Assembly (NCBI GenBank): GCA_020847515.1
Contig: JADLBW010000215.1
Coordinates: forward strand, 1-46,890
Direction: 5' to 3'
Source: Pirellulales bacterium
Lineage (GTDB): Bacteria; Planctomycetota; Planctomycetia; Pirellulales; Lacipirellulaceae
DNA length: 46,890 bases
The notes beneath the pieces are model-generated. The model did no database searches. It was not told the DNA's origin and saw only the letters and a program-made list of their open reading frames with translations. The position numbers and the translations under genes are program-made. Shown piece by piece: positions 8,274 through 18,431 of this stretch (position 1 is its first letter; each line of letters starts with the position of its first letter).

Positions 8274-11270
<2,997 letters not shown>

Positions 11271-11465: not shown

Positions 11466-11494
11466 TTGACAACTGGGGCGGCCCGACTTATCCT
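11466..11494 (+). promoter_or_regulatory. Sigma70-type promoter of the cimA leader
   Basis: TTGACA at 11466-11471 (perfect -35), a 17-base spacer, and TATCCT at 11489-11494 (four of six -10 positions). Transcription would start near 11501, giving a leader RNA of about 185 bases up to the terminator ending at 11684. The position just before an Ile-rich mini-ORF and a terminator supports the call. Confidence 0.6.
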
Positions 11495-11530
11495 TTAGAA
11501 CCGTCGCAACTTAGGTCCGGAAACCTCCCG

Positions 11531-11620
11531 ATGCGTTCGCCCCAGCCCACTACCAGCTTTCAATCGCTCGCGATCGGCGTGGCGATTATTGGCATTATTA
11601 TTCGGGAGGTCCGGCCGTAA
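11531..11620 (+). CDS. Ile-rich leader peptide of the cimA attenuator
   Basis: A 29-codon ORF from ATG 11531 to TAA 11618-11620. Its middle reads AIGVAIIGIIIREV: six Ile codons and a Val within ten codons (11573-11602). The ORF begins about 30 bases after the predicted transcription start and ends inside the 5' arm of the proposed antiterminator. A ribosome binding site is weak (GGA nine bases before ATG). Such peptides sense charged tRNA-Ile: stalling at the Ile run would expose the RNA that disrupts the terminator. The target would be cimA, which commits pyruvate to isoleucine. Too short to support by protein homology; the case rests on codon content, position and RNA structure. Confidence 0.65.
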   Translation: MRSPQPTTSFQSLAIGVAIIGIIIREVRP

Positions 11621-11665
11621 GGGTTGCTGACTCGCACGTACGATTCACACAAACCCTGGGGCCGG
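11611..11665 (+). promoter_or_regulatory. Antiterminator of the cimA attenuator
   Basis: CCGGCC (11611-11616) can pair with GGCCGG (11660-11665), and AGGGTT (11620-11625) with AACCCT (11652-11657), separated by a small internal loop (GTA opposite GG). The 12-bp helix uses the same bases as the 5' arm of the terminator at 11651-11684, so only one of the two can form. Its 5' strand begins just after the Ile codons of the leader peptide. A ribosome stalled on them would leave it free, while a ribosome at the stop codon would cover it. Confidence 0.6.
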
Positions 11666-11684
11666 AAGGCTTCAGGGTTTTTTT
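11651..11684 (+). terminator. Rho-independent terminator of the cimA leader
   Basis: AAACCCTGGGGCC - GGAA - GGCTTCAGGGTTT forms a 13-bp stem (11 Watson-Crick and two G-U pairs) capped by a GGAA tetraloop and followed by TTTT; the T tract is seven T's from 11678 to 11684. It is the best intrinsic terminator in the window and lies 31 bases after the leader-peptide stop codon. Confidence 0.75.
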
Positions 11685-11702
11685 GTTGGGGGGAGAGGCC
11701 AA

Positions 11703-11758
11703 AGGTCAGAGGTCAGAGGTCAGAGGTCAGAGGTCAGAGGTCAGAGGTCAGAGGCCAG
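11703..11758 (+). repeat. Heptamer array (AGGTCAG) x8
   Basis: Seven perfect AGGTCAG units (11703-11751) and an eighth with one change (AGGCCAG) end exactly at the ATG of the four-helix-bundle gene at 11759. A shorter array of the reverse complement follows that gene at 12166-12190, so the gene sits between inverted arrays. Confidence 0.9.
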
Positions 11759-12151
11759 ATGAAGCACTCAAACCCGATCCGAAGTCATCGCGATCTTGGC
11801 GTGTGGCAGTTGGGAATGCGACTCGCCGAGCGGATATATGCGATTACGCAAGCGTTTCCGCCCGACGAGCGGTTTGGACTGACCAGTCAACAGCGCCGTG
11901 CAGCGGCCTCCGTCCCTGCCAACATCGCCGAAGGCAATGCCCGCGATTACACGCAGGACTATCTGCGGTTTCTGTCCATCACTATCGGCTCCCTGGCAGA
12001 AGTAGAGACATATCTGGAGCTAGCAGTTCGGCTCCAGTACGGCGCACCTGAACACAGCCAAGACGTCGAGGAATTGATCGCCGAGGAGCGTCGCATGCTA
12101 CGAGGCCTCCAGCGTTCGCTACGCTCCAAACTTATCCCCCCGTCGCCCTGA
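11759..12151 (+). CDS. Four-helix-bundle protein of the 23S rRNA IVS / S23 family
   Basis: A 130-residue all-helical protein with the family's hallmark pattern: a short N-terminus SHRDLGVWQLGMRLAERIYA, then TQAFPPDERFGLTSQQRRAA, SVPANIAEGNAR and FLSITIGSLAEVETYLELA. Family members are encoded in intervening sequences of 23S rRNA in some bacteria and as free genes elsewhere, and are related to Avd of diversity-generating retroelements; they form pentameric barrels that bind nucleic acid (family knowledge). ATG 11759 is chosen because it follows the heptamer array and starts the conserved part; an upstream frame from 11624 just translates the repeats. The gene lies between the cimA attenuator and cimA, flanked by inverted heptamer arrays, suggesting a mobile cassette. 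Function here is unknown. Confidence 0.85.
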   Translation: MKHSNPIRSHRDLGVWQLGMRLAERIYAITQAFPPDERFGLTSQQRRAAASVPANIAEGNARDYTQDYLRFLSITIGSLAEVETYLELAVRLQYGAPEHSQDVEELIAEERRMLRGLQRSLRSKLIPPSP

Positions 12152-12165
12152 CCACCGTCCGCCAA

Positions 12166-12193
12166 CCTCTGACCTCCGACCTCCGACCTCTCC
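12166..12193 (+). repeat. Inverted heptamer array (CCTCTGA/CCTCCGA)
   Basis: CCTCTGA, CCTCCGA, CCTCCGA and CCTCTCC follow each other from 12166 to 12193, the degenerate reverse complement of the AGGTCAG array at 11703-11758. The array ends five bases before the cimA ATG. Confidence 0.75.
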
Positions 12194-12198
12194 CCCCC

Positions 12199-13875
12199 AT
12201 GCACATCCAAATCTACGACACGACGCGTCGCGACGGCGCCCAGGGCGAGGGCGTCAGCTTCTCGCTCGAGGACAAGGTGCTCATCGCCCGTCGCCTTGAC
12301 GAGATGGGCTTCGACTACGTTGAAGGAGGCTACCCGCTGTCGAACCCGAAGGACGCCGAGTTCTTCGCGCGACTCGCGGCCGAGCCGCTTAAGAACAGCC
12401 GGCTGTGCGCCTTCGGCATGACGCGGCGCCGCGGCATGAAGCCGGCCGACGACCCCGGCATGAGGGCCCTCGTCGAAGCGAAGACGCCGGTGGTGACGAT
12501 CGTCGGCAAGACGCACGACTTCCACGCCACGGAGGTGCTCGGCGTATCGCTCGAAGAAAACTTGGCGATGATTCGCGAGACGGTCGCCTACCTGCGCGAG
12601 CAGGGCCGGCAGGTGATCTACGACGCCGAGCATTTCTTCGACGGCTGGAAGGCCAACCCCGAGTACGCCGCCAAGACGATCCGCGCGGCGGCTGAGGCCG
12701 GGGCGTCGCTGGTGGTCATGTGCGACACCAACGGCGGCAGCCTGCCGGAGGAGATTTCCGCCCTTACCCAGGAAGCGGCGCATGCCGTGGACGTCCCGCT
12801 GGGCATCCACTGTCATAACGACTGCGAGCTGGCGGTCGCCAATTCGCTGGCCGCCGTCGACGCCGGCGCCGTCCACGTTCAGGGCACGATCAACGGTTTT
12901 GGCGAGCGTTGCGGCAACGTCGATTTAATTTCGGTGATCGGCAATCTGGCGCTCAAGAAACGGGGCTACGGAGTGCTAAGCGTCTACAATCCCCCTCCCC
13001 CGAAGGGAGGGGCTAAGGGAGGGCTTAGCATCCCCCTAGAAAAGGCCGCGTCGAACGCCTTGCAAGCGCCCCACGCCCAACCTCTCACCTCTGGGGAGGG
13101 GAGTCCTCTGGGGCATCTCACGGAGCTGTCGCGCTATGTATACGAGATCGCGAACATGAACTTCCGCAACGGGCAGCCGTTCGTCGGGGCGAGTGCTTTT
13201 GCTCACAAGGGGGGGATGCACGTTCACGCCGTCGCCAAGGCGGCCCACACGTACGAGCACATCGACCCGGCGCTGGTGGGCAACGAGCGCCGCGTGCTGG
13301 TAAGCGAGCTGTCGGGCCGCTCGAACATCATCGCTCTGGCCAACAAGCACCATCTCAACCAGGACAAGGAGCTGATGGATCGCGTCTTGCGGCAGATCGT
13401 GGAGCTGGAGAACCGCGGGTACCAGTTCGAGGCGGCCGAGGCCTCGTTCGAGCTGTTGGTAAAGCGGCTGGCGGGCGTGTTCACCCCCCACTTCGAGCTG
13501 GTGAAGTACAGCACGCTGGTCGAAAGCCGCGGCGGCGAGCCGATTACGCAGGCGACGGTGAAGCTGCTGGTTGGCGAACAGGTCCGCCACGAGGTGGCCG
13601 AGGGGGACGGCCCGGTGAACGCCCTGGACGCGGCGCTGCGGAAGGCCCTTAACGGCCACTTCCCGAACCTGGCCGACATGCACCTGGTCGACTACAAGGT
13701 GCGGGTCATCAACAGCGAGGCCGCCACGGCGGCGAGCGTGCGAGTTGTGATCGAGAGCCGCGACGACCAGGACGTGTGGGGCACCGTCGGCGTGCACGAG
13801 AACGTCATCGAAGCCAGTTGGGCGGCGCTGGTCGATAGCATCGAGTACAAATTGTGCAAGGATGAGCGCCAGTAA
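12199..13875 (+). CDS. cimA: (R)-citramalate synthase CimA
   Basis: A 558-residue enzyme of the LeuA/homocitrate-synthase family that condenses pyruvate and acetyl-CoA to (R)-citramalate, the entry to isoleucine via the pyruvate route. The N-terminus IYDTTRRDGAQGEGVSFSLE carries the metal-binding aspartate and the DGAQGEG signature of the citramalate type; GIHCHNDCELAVANS gives the metal-binding histidines. The C-terminal third is the regulatory domain (HMHLV-type allosteric fold). Residues about 264-304 (YNPPPPKGGAKGGLSIP and following) are an in-frame insertion built on a palindromic repeat (12988-13029). Just upstream lie a repeat-flanked cassette and, further, an Ile attenuator. Its stop overlaps one possible start of the next gene. 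Confidence 0.93.
   Translation: MHIQIYDTTRRDGAQGEGVSFSLEDKVLIARRLDEMGFDYVEGGYPLSNPKDAEFFARLAAEPLKNSRLCAFGMTRRRGMKPADDPGMRALVEAKTPVVTIVGKTHDFHATEVLGVSLEENLAMIRETVAYLREQGRQVIYDAEHFFDGWKANPEYAAKTIRAAAEAGASLVVMCDTNGGSLPEEISALTQEAAHAVDVPLGIHCHNDCELAVANSLAAVDAGAVHVQGTINGFGERCGNVDLISVIGNLALKKRGYGVLSVYNPPPPKGGAKGGLSIPLEKAASNALQAPHAQPLTSGEGSPLGHLTELSRYVYEIANMNFRNGQPFVGASAFAHKGGMHVHAVAKAAHTYEHIDPALVGNERRVLVSELSGRSNIIALANKHHLNQDKELMDRVLRQIVELENRGYQFEAAEASFELLVKRLAGVFTPHFELVKYSTLVESRGGEPITQATVKLLVGEQVRHEVAEGDGPVNALDAALRKALNGHFPNLADMHLVDYKVRVINSEAATAASVRVVIESRDDQDVWGTVGVHENVIEASWAALVDSIEYKLCKDERQ
12988..13029 (+). repeat. Palindromic repeat inserted in frame within cimA
   Basis: AATCCCCCTCCCCCGAAGGG and the following AGGGGCTAAGGGAGGGCTTAGC are nearly identical to the reverse complement of 17852-17891 inside valS. 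The centre CCCTCCC..GAAGGGAGGGG is a palindrome. A second GC-rich piece (CCTCTGGGGAGGGGAG, 13087-13102) lies in the same insertion. It is translated as a Pro/Gly/Lys stretch absent from typical CimA. Confidence 0.7.
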
Positions 13876-15090: not shown

Positions 15091-15125
15091 ACTTGGCAGT
15101 AAATACAGCTTTATTGGCGTTCCAT

Positions 15126-18100
15126 ATGAGTGACGGCAACGGCAGCACCGGCTCCCTGGGGGGTCTTCCCCCGCAATACGACCACCAGGGGGCCCAGCAG
15201 CGGTGGTACAGGTTTTGGGAAGAGCGCGGCTACTTCCATGCCGAGCCGGGGGCCAAAGACGCGGCCGGCAACCCCAAGAAGCCCTACTCGATCGTTATCC
15301 CGCCGCCGAACGTGACGGGCGCCCTGCACCTGGGCCACGCGCTGAACAACACGCTGCAGGACATCCTCATTCGCATGAAGCGGATGCAGGGGTTCAACAC
15401 GCTGTGGATGCCGGGGACCGACCACGCGGGGATCGCCACGCAGGCGGTCGTCGAGCGCCGGCTGCTGGAGGAGCAGAAGCTCACCCGGCATGAGCTCGGC
15501 CGCGAGGGGCTGGTCGAGAAGATCTGGCAGTGGAAGAACCAGTACGAGAAGCGGATCATCGGCCAGCTCAAGCAACTCGGCTGCAGTTGCGACTGGCAGC
15601 GGCTGCGGTTCACGCTCGACGAGCAGTGCGCCCGAGCGGTCCGCGAGACCTTCTTTAGGCTCTTCCAGGACGGCAAGATCTACCGCGGGAAGCGGCTGGT
15701 GAACTGGGACACCTACCTGCAAACGGCCGTCAGCGACGACGAGGTCTTCAAGGAGCCGATTAAGGGGCACTTCTGGCACTTCAAATACCCGGTCATCAAG
15801 GACGCGGCGTGGAAGGAAGGCGATCCGGAGTACGTAACCATCGCCACCACCCGGCCCGAGACGATGCTCGGCGACACGGCCGTGGCGGTCCATCCCGACC
15901 CGGCCGCGGCCTTTGATAAGCTCAGCACAGAGCTACGCGAGCGGATGCTTACGTCGACCGAGAAGGAACGCGAGCAGCTTAATGAGCAAGCGGAGCTCTT
16001 GCTGGCGCGTCGAGCTCGGATGTTGCCGCAGCTTGAGCGGCTGCGCGACATGGCCGAGCGCGGCGTGAAGCTGCGGCTGCCGCTGGCCGAGCGGGAGATT
16101 CCGCTCATCGCCGACGAGTGGGCCAAGCCCGAGCTCGGCTCCGGCGCCGTGAAGATCACGCCGGCCCACGACGAGAACGACTACGCCGTGGGGCAGCGCC
16201 ATCCCGAGATCGGCGCCATCAACATCATGAACCCTGACGGCACGCTCAACGACAGCGTGCCGGAGAAGTACCGCGGCCTCAAGATGCACACCACGGCCCG
16301 GGCGGCGGTGATCGCCGACATGGAGGCCGCCGGTCTGTTCAACCCCGAGACCGACCGCGAAGACCGCGAGATCGAGCTGCCGCATTCGGATCGGTCGAAG
16401 ACGCCGATCGAGCCGTACCTGGCCGACCAGTGGTTCGTGAAGATGGACGACGAGTTGACCGGGCCCGGTTCTGGCAAACCTGGCCTTGCCCAATCGGCGA
16501 TGGACGCGGTCAGCGACGGCCGGGTGAAGATCGTGCCGGAGCGGTATGGGAGGACTTACCTCGATTGGCTCAGCGAGAAGCGCGACTGGCCGGTGGGCCG
16601 GCAGTTGTGGTGGGGACACCGGATTACTGTGTGGCATGAAAGCGCAAGTGACTCACTCACTGCCTCAGAAAAAGCAGTACGTCGGAAGCAACGAGCCCAA
16701 TTGAATGCTCAATATGACAAGTGGGAACAAGACGGGCGCATTTCCAGGCGGATCAAGGACCAATCATGGGGACCAATCCTCGGACCCAACTTCTATGAAC
16801 CCGATCACTACTACTACTGCGTGAACGATTCTAGCGATGGTGAGATCGTCGATTTGTTAGAGCAAAATGGAACATACCTACAGAGCGAAGAAGTCCTCGA
16901 TACCTGGTTCTCCTCCGCCCTCTGGCCCCACTCGACGCTCGGCTGGCCCGAGCGAACGCCGGAACTGGCCGAGTTCTACCCCACGAGCGTGCTGGTCACC
17001 AGTCGCGACATCATCACCCTGTGGGTCGCGCGGATGGTCCTCACCGGCCTCTACAACATGGGCGAAGTCCCGTTCCACGAGGTCTACATCCACCCCAAAA
17101 TTCTCGACGGATACGGCGAGACGATGTCCAAATCGAAGGGCAACGGCGTCGACCCGATCGACGTGATCGAGAAGTTCGGCGCCGACGCCCTGCGGTTCGG
17201 CATCGCCTACCTTTGCACCGAGACGCAAGACGTCCGCCTGCCGGTGGAGTTCGAGTGCCCCCGCTGCAGCGCGCTGATCCCGCAGACGAAGAAGAACCGC
17301 ACGCAGCCCCGCATCGAGTGCGAGCGGTGCCATCAGCCGTTCCGCACCCAGTGGGCCGAGTCGGACCCCGACAAGGCCCTGCCGCGCGGGGCCGTGGTGA
17401 GCGAGCGGTTCGAGCTCGGCCGCCGCTTCTGCAACAAACTGTGGAACGCCTCGCGCTTCAGCCTGATGAACCTTGAAGGCTACGCCAGCGACCCGGGCCG
17501 TCTCGGCCCCGGCGAGCTCCTGTTAGAAGACCGCTGGTTGCTCTCGCGGCTGGCGACTGTCACGGGCCAGGTCACCGACGCTCTCGAATCGTACCGCTTT
17601 GCCGATGCGGCACGGCTGCTCTACGCCTTCGCGTGGAACGACTTCTGCGACTACTACGTTGAGATGACCAAGGCCCGCTTCGCCGTGGCCGAGCAGCGGC
17701 CGGTCGCGCAGCGGGTGCTGGCCTATGTACTCGATTCGCTGCTGCGATTGTTGCATCCGATTGTGCCGTTTCTTACTGAGGAAGTCTGGCAGCTTTTGAA
17801 TCAGGTGGCGCCGGTGCGCCGGATTGAGGGGCTGGGCTCAAACGCTCCGGACAATCCCTCCCCTAGCCCCTCCCTTCGAGGGAGGGGGATTTGGGAGAGC
17901 GTCTGCGTGGCCGATTGGCCGCAGGCGGATACGGCGAGAATCGACGCGACGATCGAAGAGCAATTCGCCGACTTCCAGGGGGTGCTTGGCGCCGTGCGCG
18001 AGCTGCGGATGGCCCAGAACATTCCGCCGCGCGAGCCGGTCGAGTTCTGCGTTCGCTGCGACGAGGCCACCGCCCGGCTGCTCGAGCCGATGCAGCCCTA

Positions 18101-18431
18101 CTTCACGCAGATGGCCAAGGCCGCCTCCACCGCCTGGGGCCCGAGCGTGACGCCGCCGGAAGTCGCCGCCACCAGCCAGGTGACCGGCGCTCGCGGCACG
18201 ATCGAGGTCCACGTCGACGTCAGCCGGTTCATCGACGTAGAGGCCGAAAAGGCCCGGCTCGCCAAGCAGCGCGACCAGCTCCGCGGCTTCGCCAAATCGA
18301 TCGAGGGGAAGCTGGCCAACGAGAGCTTCGTCAGCCGCGCCCCGGCGGAGGTCGTCCAGCAGCAGCGGGATAAGCTCAAGGAGGTACAGGGCCAAATCGA
18401 CTCGATCGAGTCGGCTCTGGCAAAGCTTTAG
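15126..18431 (+). CDS. valS: Valyl-tRNA synthetase
   Basis: A 1101-residue class I synthetase that charges tRNA-Val and edits mischarged threonine. The HIGH motif is HLGH at 68-71 in PPPNVTGALHLGHALNN; the KMSKS motif is MSKSK near 666-670. The CP1 editing domain (VTIATTRPETMLGDTAVAVH and ITPAHDENDYAVGQRHP) contains an extra coiled segment around 260-320. A zinc-ribbon-like CPRC..CERC insertion follows KMSKS. The C-terminal coiled-coil arm is intact (VEAEKARLAKQRDQLRGFAK). Two oddities: a GC-poor patch at 16627-16900 with a large insertion, and a short in-frame palindromic insertion at 17852-17891. ATG 15126 matches the normal N-terminus. The length exceeds most bacterial ValRS (about 900-950) because of these insertions. 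Confidence 0.95.
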   Translation: MSDGNGSTGSLGGLPPQYDHQGAQQRWYRFWEERGYFHAEPGAKDAAGNPKKPYSIVIPPPNVTGALHLGHALNNTLQDILIRMKRMQGFNTLWMPGTDHAGIATQAVVERRLLEEQKLTRHELGREGLVEKIWQWKNQYEKRIIGQLKQLGCSCDWQRLRFTLDEQCARAVRETFFRLFQDGKIYRGKRLVNWDTYLQTAVSDDEVFKEPIKGHFWHFKYPVIKDAAWKEGDPEYVTIATTRPETMLGDTAVAVHPDPAAAFDKLSTELRERMLTSTEKEREQLNEQAELLLARRARMLPQLERLRDMAERGVKLRLPLAEREIPLIADEWAKPELGSGAVKITPAHDENDYAVGQRHPEIGAINIMNPDGTLNDSVPEKYRGLKMHTTARAAVIADMEAAGLFNPETDREDREIELPHSDRSKTPIEPYLADQWFVKMDDELTGPGSGKPGLAQSAMDAVSDGRVKIVPERYGRTYLDWLSEKRDWPVGRQLWWGHRITVWHESASDSLTASEKAVRRKQRAQLNAQYDKWEQDGRISRRIKDQSWGPILGPNFYEPDHYYYCVNDSSDGEIVDLLEQNGTYLQSEEVLDTWFSSALWPHSTLGWPERTPELAEFYPTSVLVTSRDIITLWVARMVLTGLYNMGEVPFHEVYIHPKILDGYGETMSKSKGNGVDPIDVIEKFGADALRFGIAYLCTETQDVRLPVEFECPRCSALIPQTKKNRTQPRIECERCHQPFRTQWAESDPDKALPRGAVVSERFELGRRFCNKLWNASRFSLMNLEGYASDPGRLGPGELLLEDRWLLSRLATVTGQVTDALESYRFADAARLLYAFAWNDFCDYYVEMTKARFAVAEQRPVAQRVLAYVLDSLLRLLHPIVPFLTEEVWQLLNQVAPVRRIEGLGSNAPDNPSPSPSLRGRGIWESVCVADWPQADTARIDATIEEQFADFQGVLGAVRELRMAQNIPPREPVEFCVRCDEATARLLEPMQPYFTQMAKAASTAWGPSVTPPEVAATSQVTGARGTIEVHVDVSRFIDVEAEKARLAKQRDQLRGFAKSIEGKLANESFVSRAPAEVVQQQRDKLKEVQGQIDSIESALAKL
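17852..17891 (-). repeat. Palindromic repeat inserted in frame within valS
   Basis: On the minus strand this reads AATCCCCCTCCCTCGAAGGG then AGGGGCTAGGGGAGGGATTG, almost the same as 12988-13029 in cimA. In valS it encodes the Pro/Ser/Arg-rich stretch NPSPSPSLRGRGI, placed where other synthetases have a short loop before the anticodon-binding domain ends. Confidence 0.7.

Follow-up and report, generated by a model that had tools for sequence, protein, structure and literature searches.

The question raised by this locus is how the gene for citramalate synthase, cimA, which provides the pyruvate–citramalate entry to isoleucine, might be regulated in a planctomycete. We analysed a 46,890-nucleotide stretch of a Pirellulales genome (hereafter the window), in which cimA lies at 12199–13875 on the forward strand, as do the leader elements and the inserted gene described below, and is recognised as an equivalog by TIGR00977 (665 bits; cut-off 450). 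The original prediction placed an isoleucine attenuator upstream of this gene, and the parts present in the window, covariation of the terminator among relatives and a swap of isoleucine for leucine codons that goes with the gene all support it. The window very probably contains a classical ribosome-mediated transcription attenuator that would sense charged tRNA-Ile and control cimA, the presumed regulated gene, together with a second gene inserted in front of it.

The first element is a sigma-70-type promoter (11466–11494; ten of twelve consensus matches), with the hexamers TTGACA at 11466–11471 and TATCCT at 11489–11494 separated by a 17 nt spacer. When four species of the genus are compared, both hexamers are invariant whilst the spacer drifts. 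Downstream lies a leader ORF of 29 codons, MRSPQPTTSFQSLAIGVAIIGIIIREVRP (11531–11620, with its TAA stop codon at 11618–11620), whose codon run comprises six isoleucines, at 11573, 11585, 11588, 11594, 11597 and 11600, and one valine; none of 300 shuffled sequences reached this level of isoleucine. No Shine–Dalgarno sequence was found before the leader start codon (11518–11531). An anti-Shine–Dalgarno-like CCTCCCG stands immediately 5′ of the ATG and belongs to the first of the RNA helices described next.

Four RNA segments can be recognised. Segment 1 (11504–11531), just 5′ of the leader start codon, is the 5′ strand of a protector or pause helix, 1:2, which in the minimum-energy fold pairs CCTCCCG (11524–11530) with CGGGAGG (11603–11609), plus flanking pairs. 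Compensatory changes within the genus (CCTCCCG/CGGGAGG in the window, CCTTTCG/CGGGAGG in L004 and CCTTTCG/CGAAAGG in L006) give C–G, U–G and U–A versions of the same pairs; at distant loci the helix is weaker (mean z -1.3). Segment 2 (11603–11625), which holds the leader stop codon within the GGCC-(stop)-AGGG conserved in alignment A1, can pair either with segment 1 or with segment 3 (11652–11665). The latter pairing forms a 12 bp antiterminator in which CCGGCC-GTA-AGGGTT (11611–11625) meets AACCCT..GGCCGG (11652–11665), six pairs joining 11611–11616 to 11660–11665 and six joining 11620–11625 to 11652–11657. This duplex is stronger than those of shuffled sequences (z -3.6, P = 0.003), and the folding energy of the region as a whole (11501–11690) is lower than that of dinucleotide shuffles (z -2.9). 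Segment 3 also supplies the 5′ strand of an intrinsic terminator, 3:4 (11651–11687), whose 13 bp hairpin with a GGAA loop spans 11651–11680 and is followed by a T run, making antiterminator and terminator mutually exclusive. The promoter, the isoleucine-rich ORF, the antiterminator overlapping the leader stop codon and the competing terminator had all been proposed earlier, and each is present as described; helix 1:2, not listed then, completes the layout of the ilv/his/trp attenuators to which the region had been likened.

Does the placement of the leader codons allow a ribosome to choose between these structures? E. coli ribosomes cover the RNA to 12 nt past the first base of the A-site codon. 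Calculated in this way, a ribosome with isoleucine codon 19, 20, 22 or 23 in its A-site would cover the RNA to 11597–11609, leaving the antiterminator strand free, whilst one on the stop codon would cover it to 11630, so that the terminator alone could form. A terminating ribosome would thus mask segment 2 and a stalled one leave it open. Under a stall at codons 19 to 23 the antiterminator hairpin is predicted at -25.7 kcal/mol (-21.6 for a stall at isoleucine 24), at a time when polymerase has yet to make the final terminator strand. After the complete leader has been transcribed, with the ribosome stalled at codon 19, the two states lie at -32.8 and -33.3; because these energies are so close, we infer that the choice between them would be kinetic.

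The following mechanism can be proposed from this geometry. RNA polymerase would start near 11501 and a ribosome would translate the leader. With tRNA-Ile charged, the ribosome would proceed to the stop codon, hide segment 2 by covering the RNA to about 11630, and so allow the 3:4 terminator to end transcription. Were charged tRNA-Ile scarce, the ribosome would stall on the isoleucine run with codons 19–23 in the A-site, break helix 1:2 and leave 11611–11625 free; helix 2:3 would then form before segment 4 was made, and polymerase would read on into cimA. If the leader were not translated at all, 1:2 would form and the terminator would win.

The inserted cassette that had been noted between terminator and cimA is a gene for a TIGR02436 four-helix-bundle protein (11756–12151; 113.7 bits, cut-off 24), flanked by GGTCAGA-type repeats. 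Standing where it does, it would be co-regulated with cimA if the attenuator works. A TIGR02436 gene occupies the same gap in three other loci (L017, L020 and L023), and the tree requires two to three changes, so that the genes of this kind at cimA may or may not share one insertion. In the window (11690–12198) this S23-like gene is bordered by short tandem repeats in inverted orientation (GGTCAGA.. / ..TCTGACC); units of the same type are found at the matching site before cimA in two other genera, and in L251 a close homologue, with inverted repeats of its own (GTGGCTA type), lies between pheS-like and pheT-like genes. Because of these repeat borders and their recurrence at cimA and at the pheS/pheT-like site, the units look like mobile elements of intra-operon gaps. 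The cimA gene of the window is also interrupted, in frame, by an insertion some 40 codons long (residues 262–300; 12980–13100) with a palindromic CCCCTCCC/GGGAGGGG repeat, on either side of which alone the cimA genes of relatives all match, and valS (15093–18431) seems to carry a similar insertion near 17830–17870.

Alignment of the region upstream of cimA in related planctomycetes, suggested as a check in the original prediction, shows both the isoleucine run and the paired stems, with covariation of the terminator stems. The cimA loci were taken from relatives and from named genomes, and 55 of 110, most of them planctomycete, have a terminator in the 650 nt before the gene. Some genomes were entered twice (L031/L038, L021/L035 and L023/L036), so the counts of loci are slightly inflated. 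Isoleucine content of the ORF ending just 5′ of the terminator was significant (P ≤ 0.05, each against its own dinucleotide shuffles) at 37 of 54 cimA loci; the leaders of relatives have Ile/Val runs at the matching position, and the distance from leader stop codon to terminator is mostly 20–36 nt. In alignment A1 (26 loci), 18 cells of the terminator changed on both sides, compared with 5.8 ± 2.9 in shuffles, and the covariation score exceeds those of all 500 shuffles. The antiterminator is 88% paired in A1 and nearly invariant in sequence, so covariation is uninformative there; it is complementarity that supports this helix, the duplex reaching P ≤ 0.05 at 26 of 58 loci (mean z -1.8).

A covariance model built from cimA leaders, R1, matches the window's own leader. 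By hand count, 37 of 54 cimA-bearing relatives have a match no more than 0.6 kb before the gene and three more have one at 0.7–2.1 kb; the matches before cimA span 15 of 20 families. Leaders reach the Gemmataceae (L063, L064, L069 and L090, the last being Gemmata sp. IIL30). No attenuator was found at cimA in roughly one in four of the relatives that have the gene, some of them in the window's own family. Those R1 matches in relatives that were inspected and lay at neither cimA nor leuA (see below) look like ordinary gene-end terminators.

Several individual loci deserve mention. In L008 and L009 (G016:C37 and G028:C35, of one genus), a tetratricopeptide-repeat-like ORF separates cimA from an attenuator-like match about 2 kb upstream, and further genes may therefore have been brought under attenuator control. 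L160 (G052:C110:7400–8454) has a full isoleucine attenuator, its leader ending in IVGMIIIREVRP; the cimA-like start that follows (MPRTQIHDAALRVGAQGEGDTL) is degraded and continues as an unrelated frame resembling a membrane protein, and the leader is possibly a relict. Two deltaproteobacterial genomes, L096 and L097, have isoleucine-rich leaders before cimA (MKRDTATIIIAGIIIRPEHRSGLMMG and MIRNIVSIIRPIIIIIIQDTSG) whose terminators are unrelated in sequence; these leaders are perhaps of independent origin.

Could the hairpin simply be where the transcript of the upstream gene ends, preceded by a chance isoleucine-rich ORF? The ftsK gene, on the same strand, ends at 11270, and chance alone does produce simple terminators. 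Yet the hairpin is preceded by a promoter of its own downstream of ftsK, and the ORF, antiterminator and terminator are found together, with conservation at fixed spacing across 15 families. Such a pairing of accidents would also have to account for a leucine version of the device at a second gene, and we regard it as very improbable.

That second gene is leuA, encoding 2-isopropylmalate synthase, which we named from its own sequence (IFDTTLRDGEQSPGxSMN) and upstream of which lie the next full-length matches of R1 in relatives. The leuA leaders keep the scaffold of the cimA leaders, with CTTAGGG at the stop codon, ACCCTGAGGCC..GGCTTCGGGG and the T run, and their codon runs specify leucine (MTLSLLPLLLLLPDARA, MNAATLLNLVLLLLAPRTP and MSTASLLLPLLLLAPTGS among others). 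Leaders for comparison were chosen by their combined content of isoleucine, leucine and valine, a measure blind to isoleucine versus leucine. Leucine outnumbers isoleucine in all 46 leuA leaders, whilst among 53 cimA leaders isoleucine outnumbers leucine in 46, the reverse holds in three and four are tied (Fisher's exact test, P = 6.7e-24). The short leader ORF thus appears to carry codons for the end product at each gene, as expected of ribosome-mediated attenuation, and the switch of the run from isoleucine to leucine at leuA is what a sensor of tRNA charging requires. All six leucine codons are used in the leuA leaders, which argues that the amino acid rather than the codon is what is kept; the rare codon CTA is nonetheless strongly enriched (103 of 387 in these leaders and 85 of 2430 in genes). 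Isoleucine codon choice differs too, the ATT:ATC ratio being 177:63 in cimA leaders against 439:1135 in cimA genes. We did not find leuA in the window's own genome, an assembly that is 69% complete, and the paired isoleucine/leucine control therefore comes from relatives.

The same comparison bears on whether the peptide itself, rather than the decoding of its codons, might stall the ribosome, in the manner of TnaC or RAPP-like arrest peptides. RP or RS forms the C terminus of many leaders, and arrest peptides are described as widespread (PMC10987492). The antiterminator strand (CGGCCTTAGGG/CGGTCTTAGGG) nevertheless accounts for this ending, which L032, L057 and L063 lack; outside the Ile/Leu run and the RNA-dictated tail the peptide is unconserved, and isoleucine gives way to leucine exactly where the gene is leuA. 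Sequence-specific arrest of the nascent chain is accordingly a highly unlikely explanation.

A more serious qualification concerns the signal. Residue totals in the cimA leaders are 174 isoleucines, 114 valines and 32 leucines, and the Gemmataceae leaders are valine-rich (VVVVITTG). Since many leaders also have valine codons, attenuation could be real with a multivalent signal of isoleucine plus valine, or control could be partly translational. The run in the window, with its six isoleucines to one valine, speaks against a joint signal here, and a hairpin with a T run, more than 500 nt from the cimA start in the window, suits termination better than control of translation. We consider a variant of this kind rather unlikely and favour attenuation of transcription in response to charged tRNA-Ile.

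At 19 ilvB loci in the relatives' genomes used for cimA and leuA, no leader or terminator was found. With leaders at cimA and leuA and none at ilvB, the device appears to belong to the two branch-point synthases of branched-chain amino acid synthesis, the enzyme they share being without it. We think it likely that a planctomycete-wide pair of attenuators, isoleucine at cimA and leucine at leuA on one RNA scaffold, controls both of these synthases, and that its upkeep in the Gemmataceae reflects coupling of transcription and translation there. Attenuation needs a ribosome close behind the polymerase, so the conserved leaders predict such coupling in planctomycetes, with Gemmata among them. For Gemmata a separation of the two processes in space has been proposed (Gottshall et al. 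2014, as cited in PMC5394234); a recent phylum-level classification does not place Planctomycetota among the phyla with runaway transcription (PMC13323073). Judging from their leaders, translation and transcription appear to be coupled in these bacteria: the Gemmataceae attenuators, with Ile/Val runs at cimA and leucine-rich leaders at leuA, where the hairpins have weak T runs, offer independent sequence evidence for coupling and make the question directly testable. The Ile/Leu pair on one scaffold amounts to a natural codon-swap experiment.

How does the device compare with known systems? Searches of Rfam gave no match in the window at gathering score and no relevant family at permissive thresholds (up to E 5), amino-acid operon leaders and the T-box included. 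The T-box leaders of branched-chain operons in Firmicutes likewise respond to tRNA charging, and in the same pathway (PMC2494555), yet need no leader peptide; with no Rfam match to the window and no T-box in the single planctomycete surveyed (PMC2494555), the probability that a T-box or other tRNA- or ligand-binding riboswitch operates here is negligible. In Actinobacteria, candidate leader peptides of ilvB and the LEU element (PMC1262725) also bring branched-chain codon runs in short ORFs before ilvB and leuA, but there leader and terminator overlap at ilvB and a pseudoknot is found at leuA, whereas the planctomycete device has a classical antiterminator and terminator at cimA and leuA. In the literature searched, mostly open-access, we found no attenuation by leader peptide described at cimA, nor at any amino-acid gene of Planctomycetota, in keeping with the earlier remark that none was known for planctomycete cimA; PMC4833913 counts short leader ORFs in Planctomycetota for another purpose and mentions neither cimA, leuA nor isoleucine.

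The closest likeness is to the leuL/leu operon of Enterobacteria and to the trp, his and ilv attenuators, which share with the planctomycete leaders a peptide rich in the end product, alternative 1:2, 2:3 and 3:4 helices, an intrinsic terminator and a stop codon over segment 2. E. coli leuL uses rare CTA codons, like those enriched in the planctomycete leuA leaders. The present device differs from these in controlling cimA, in belonging to Planctomycetota and in matching no Rfam model. The putative mechanism is of the classical trp/his/leu/ilv kind; what is new, as far as the literature searched shows, is the gene, cimA, and the phylum.
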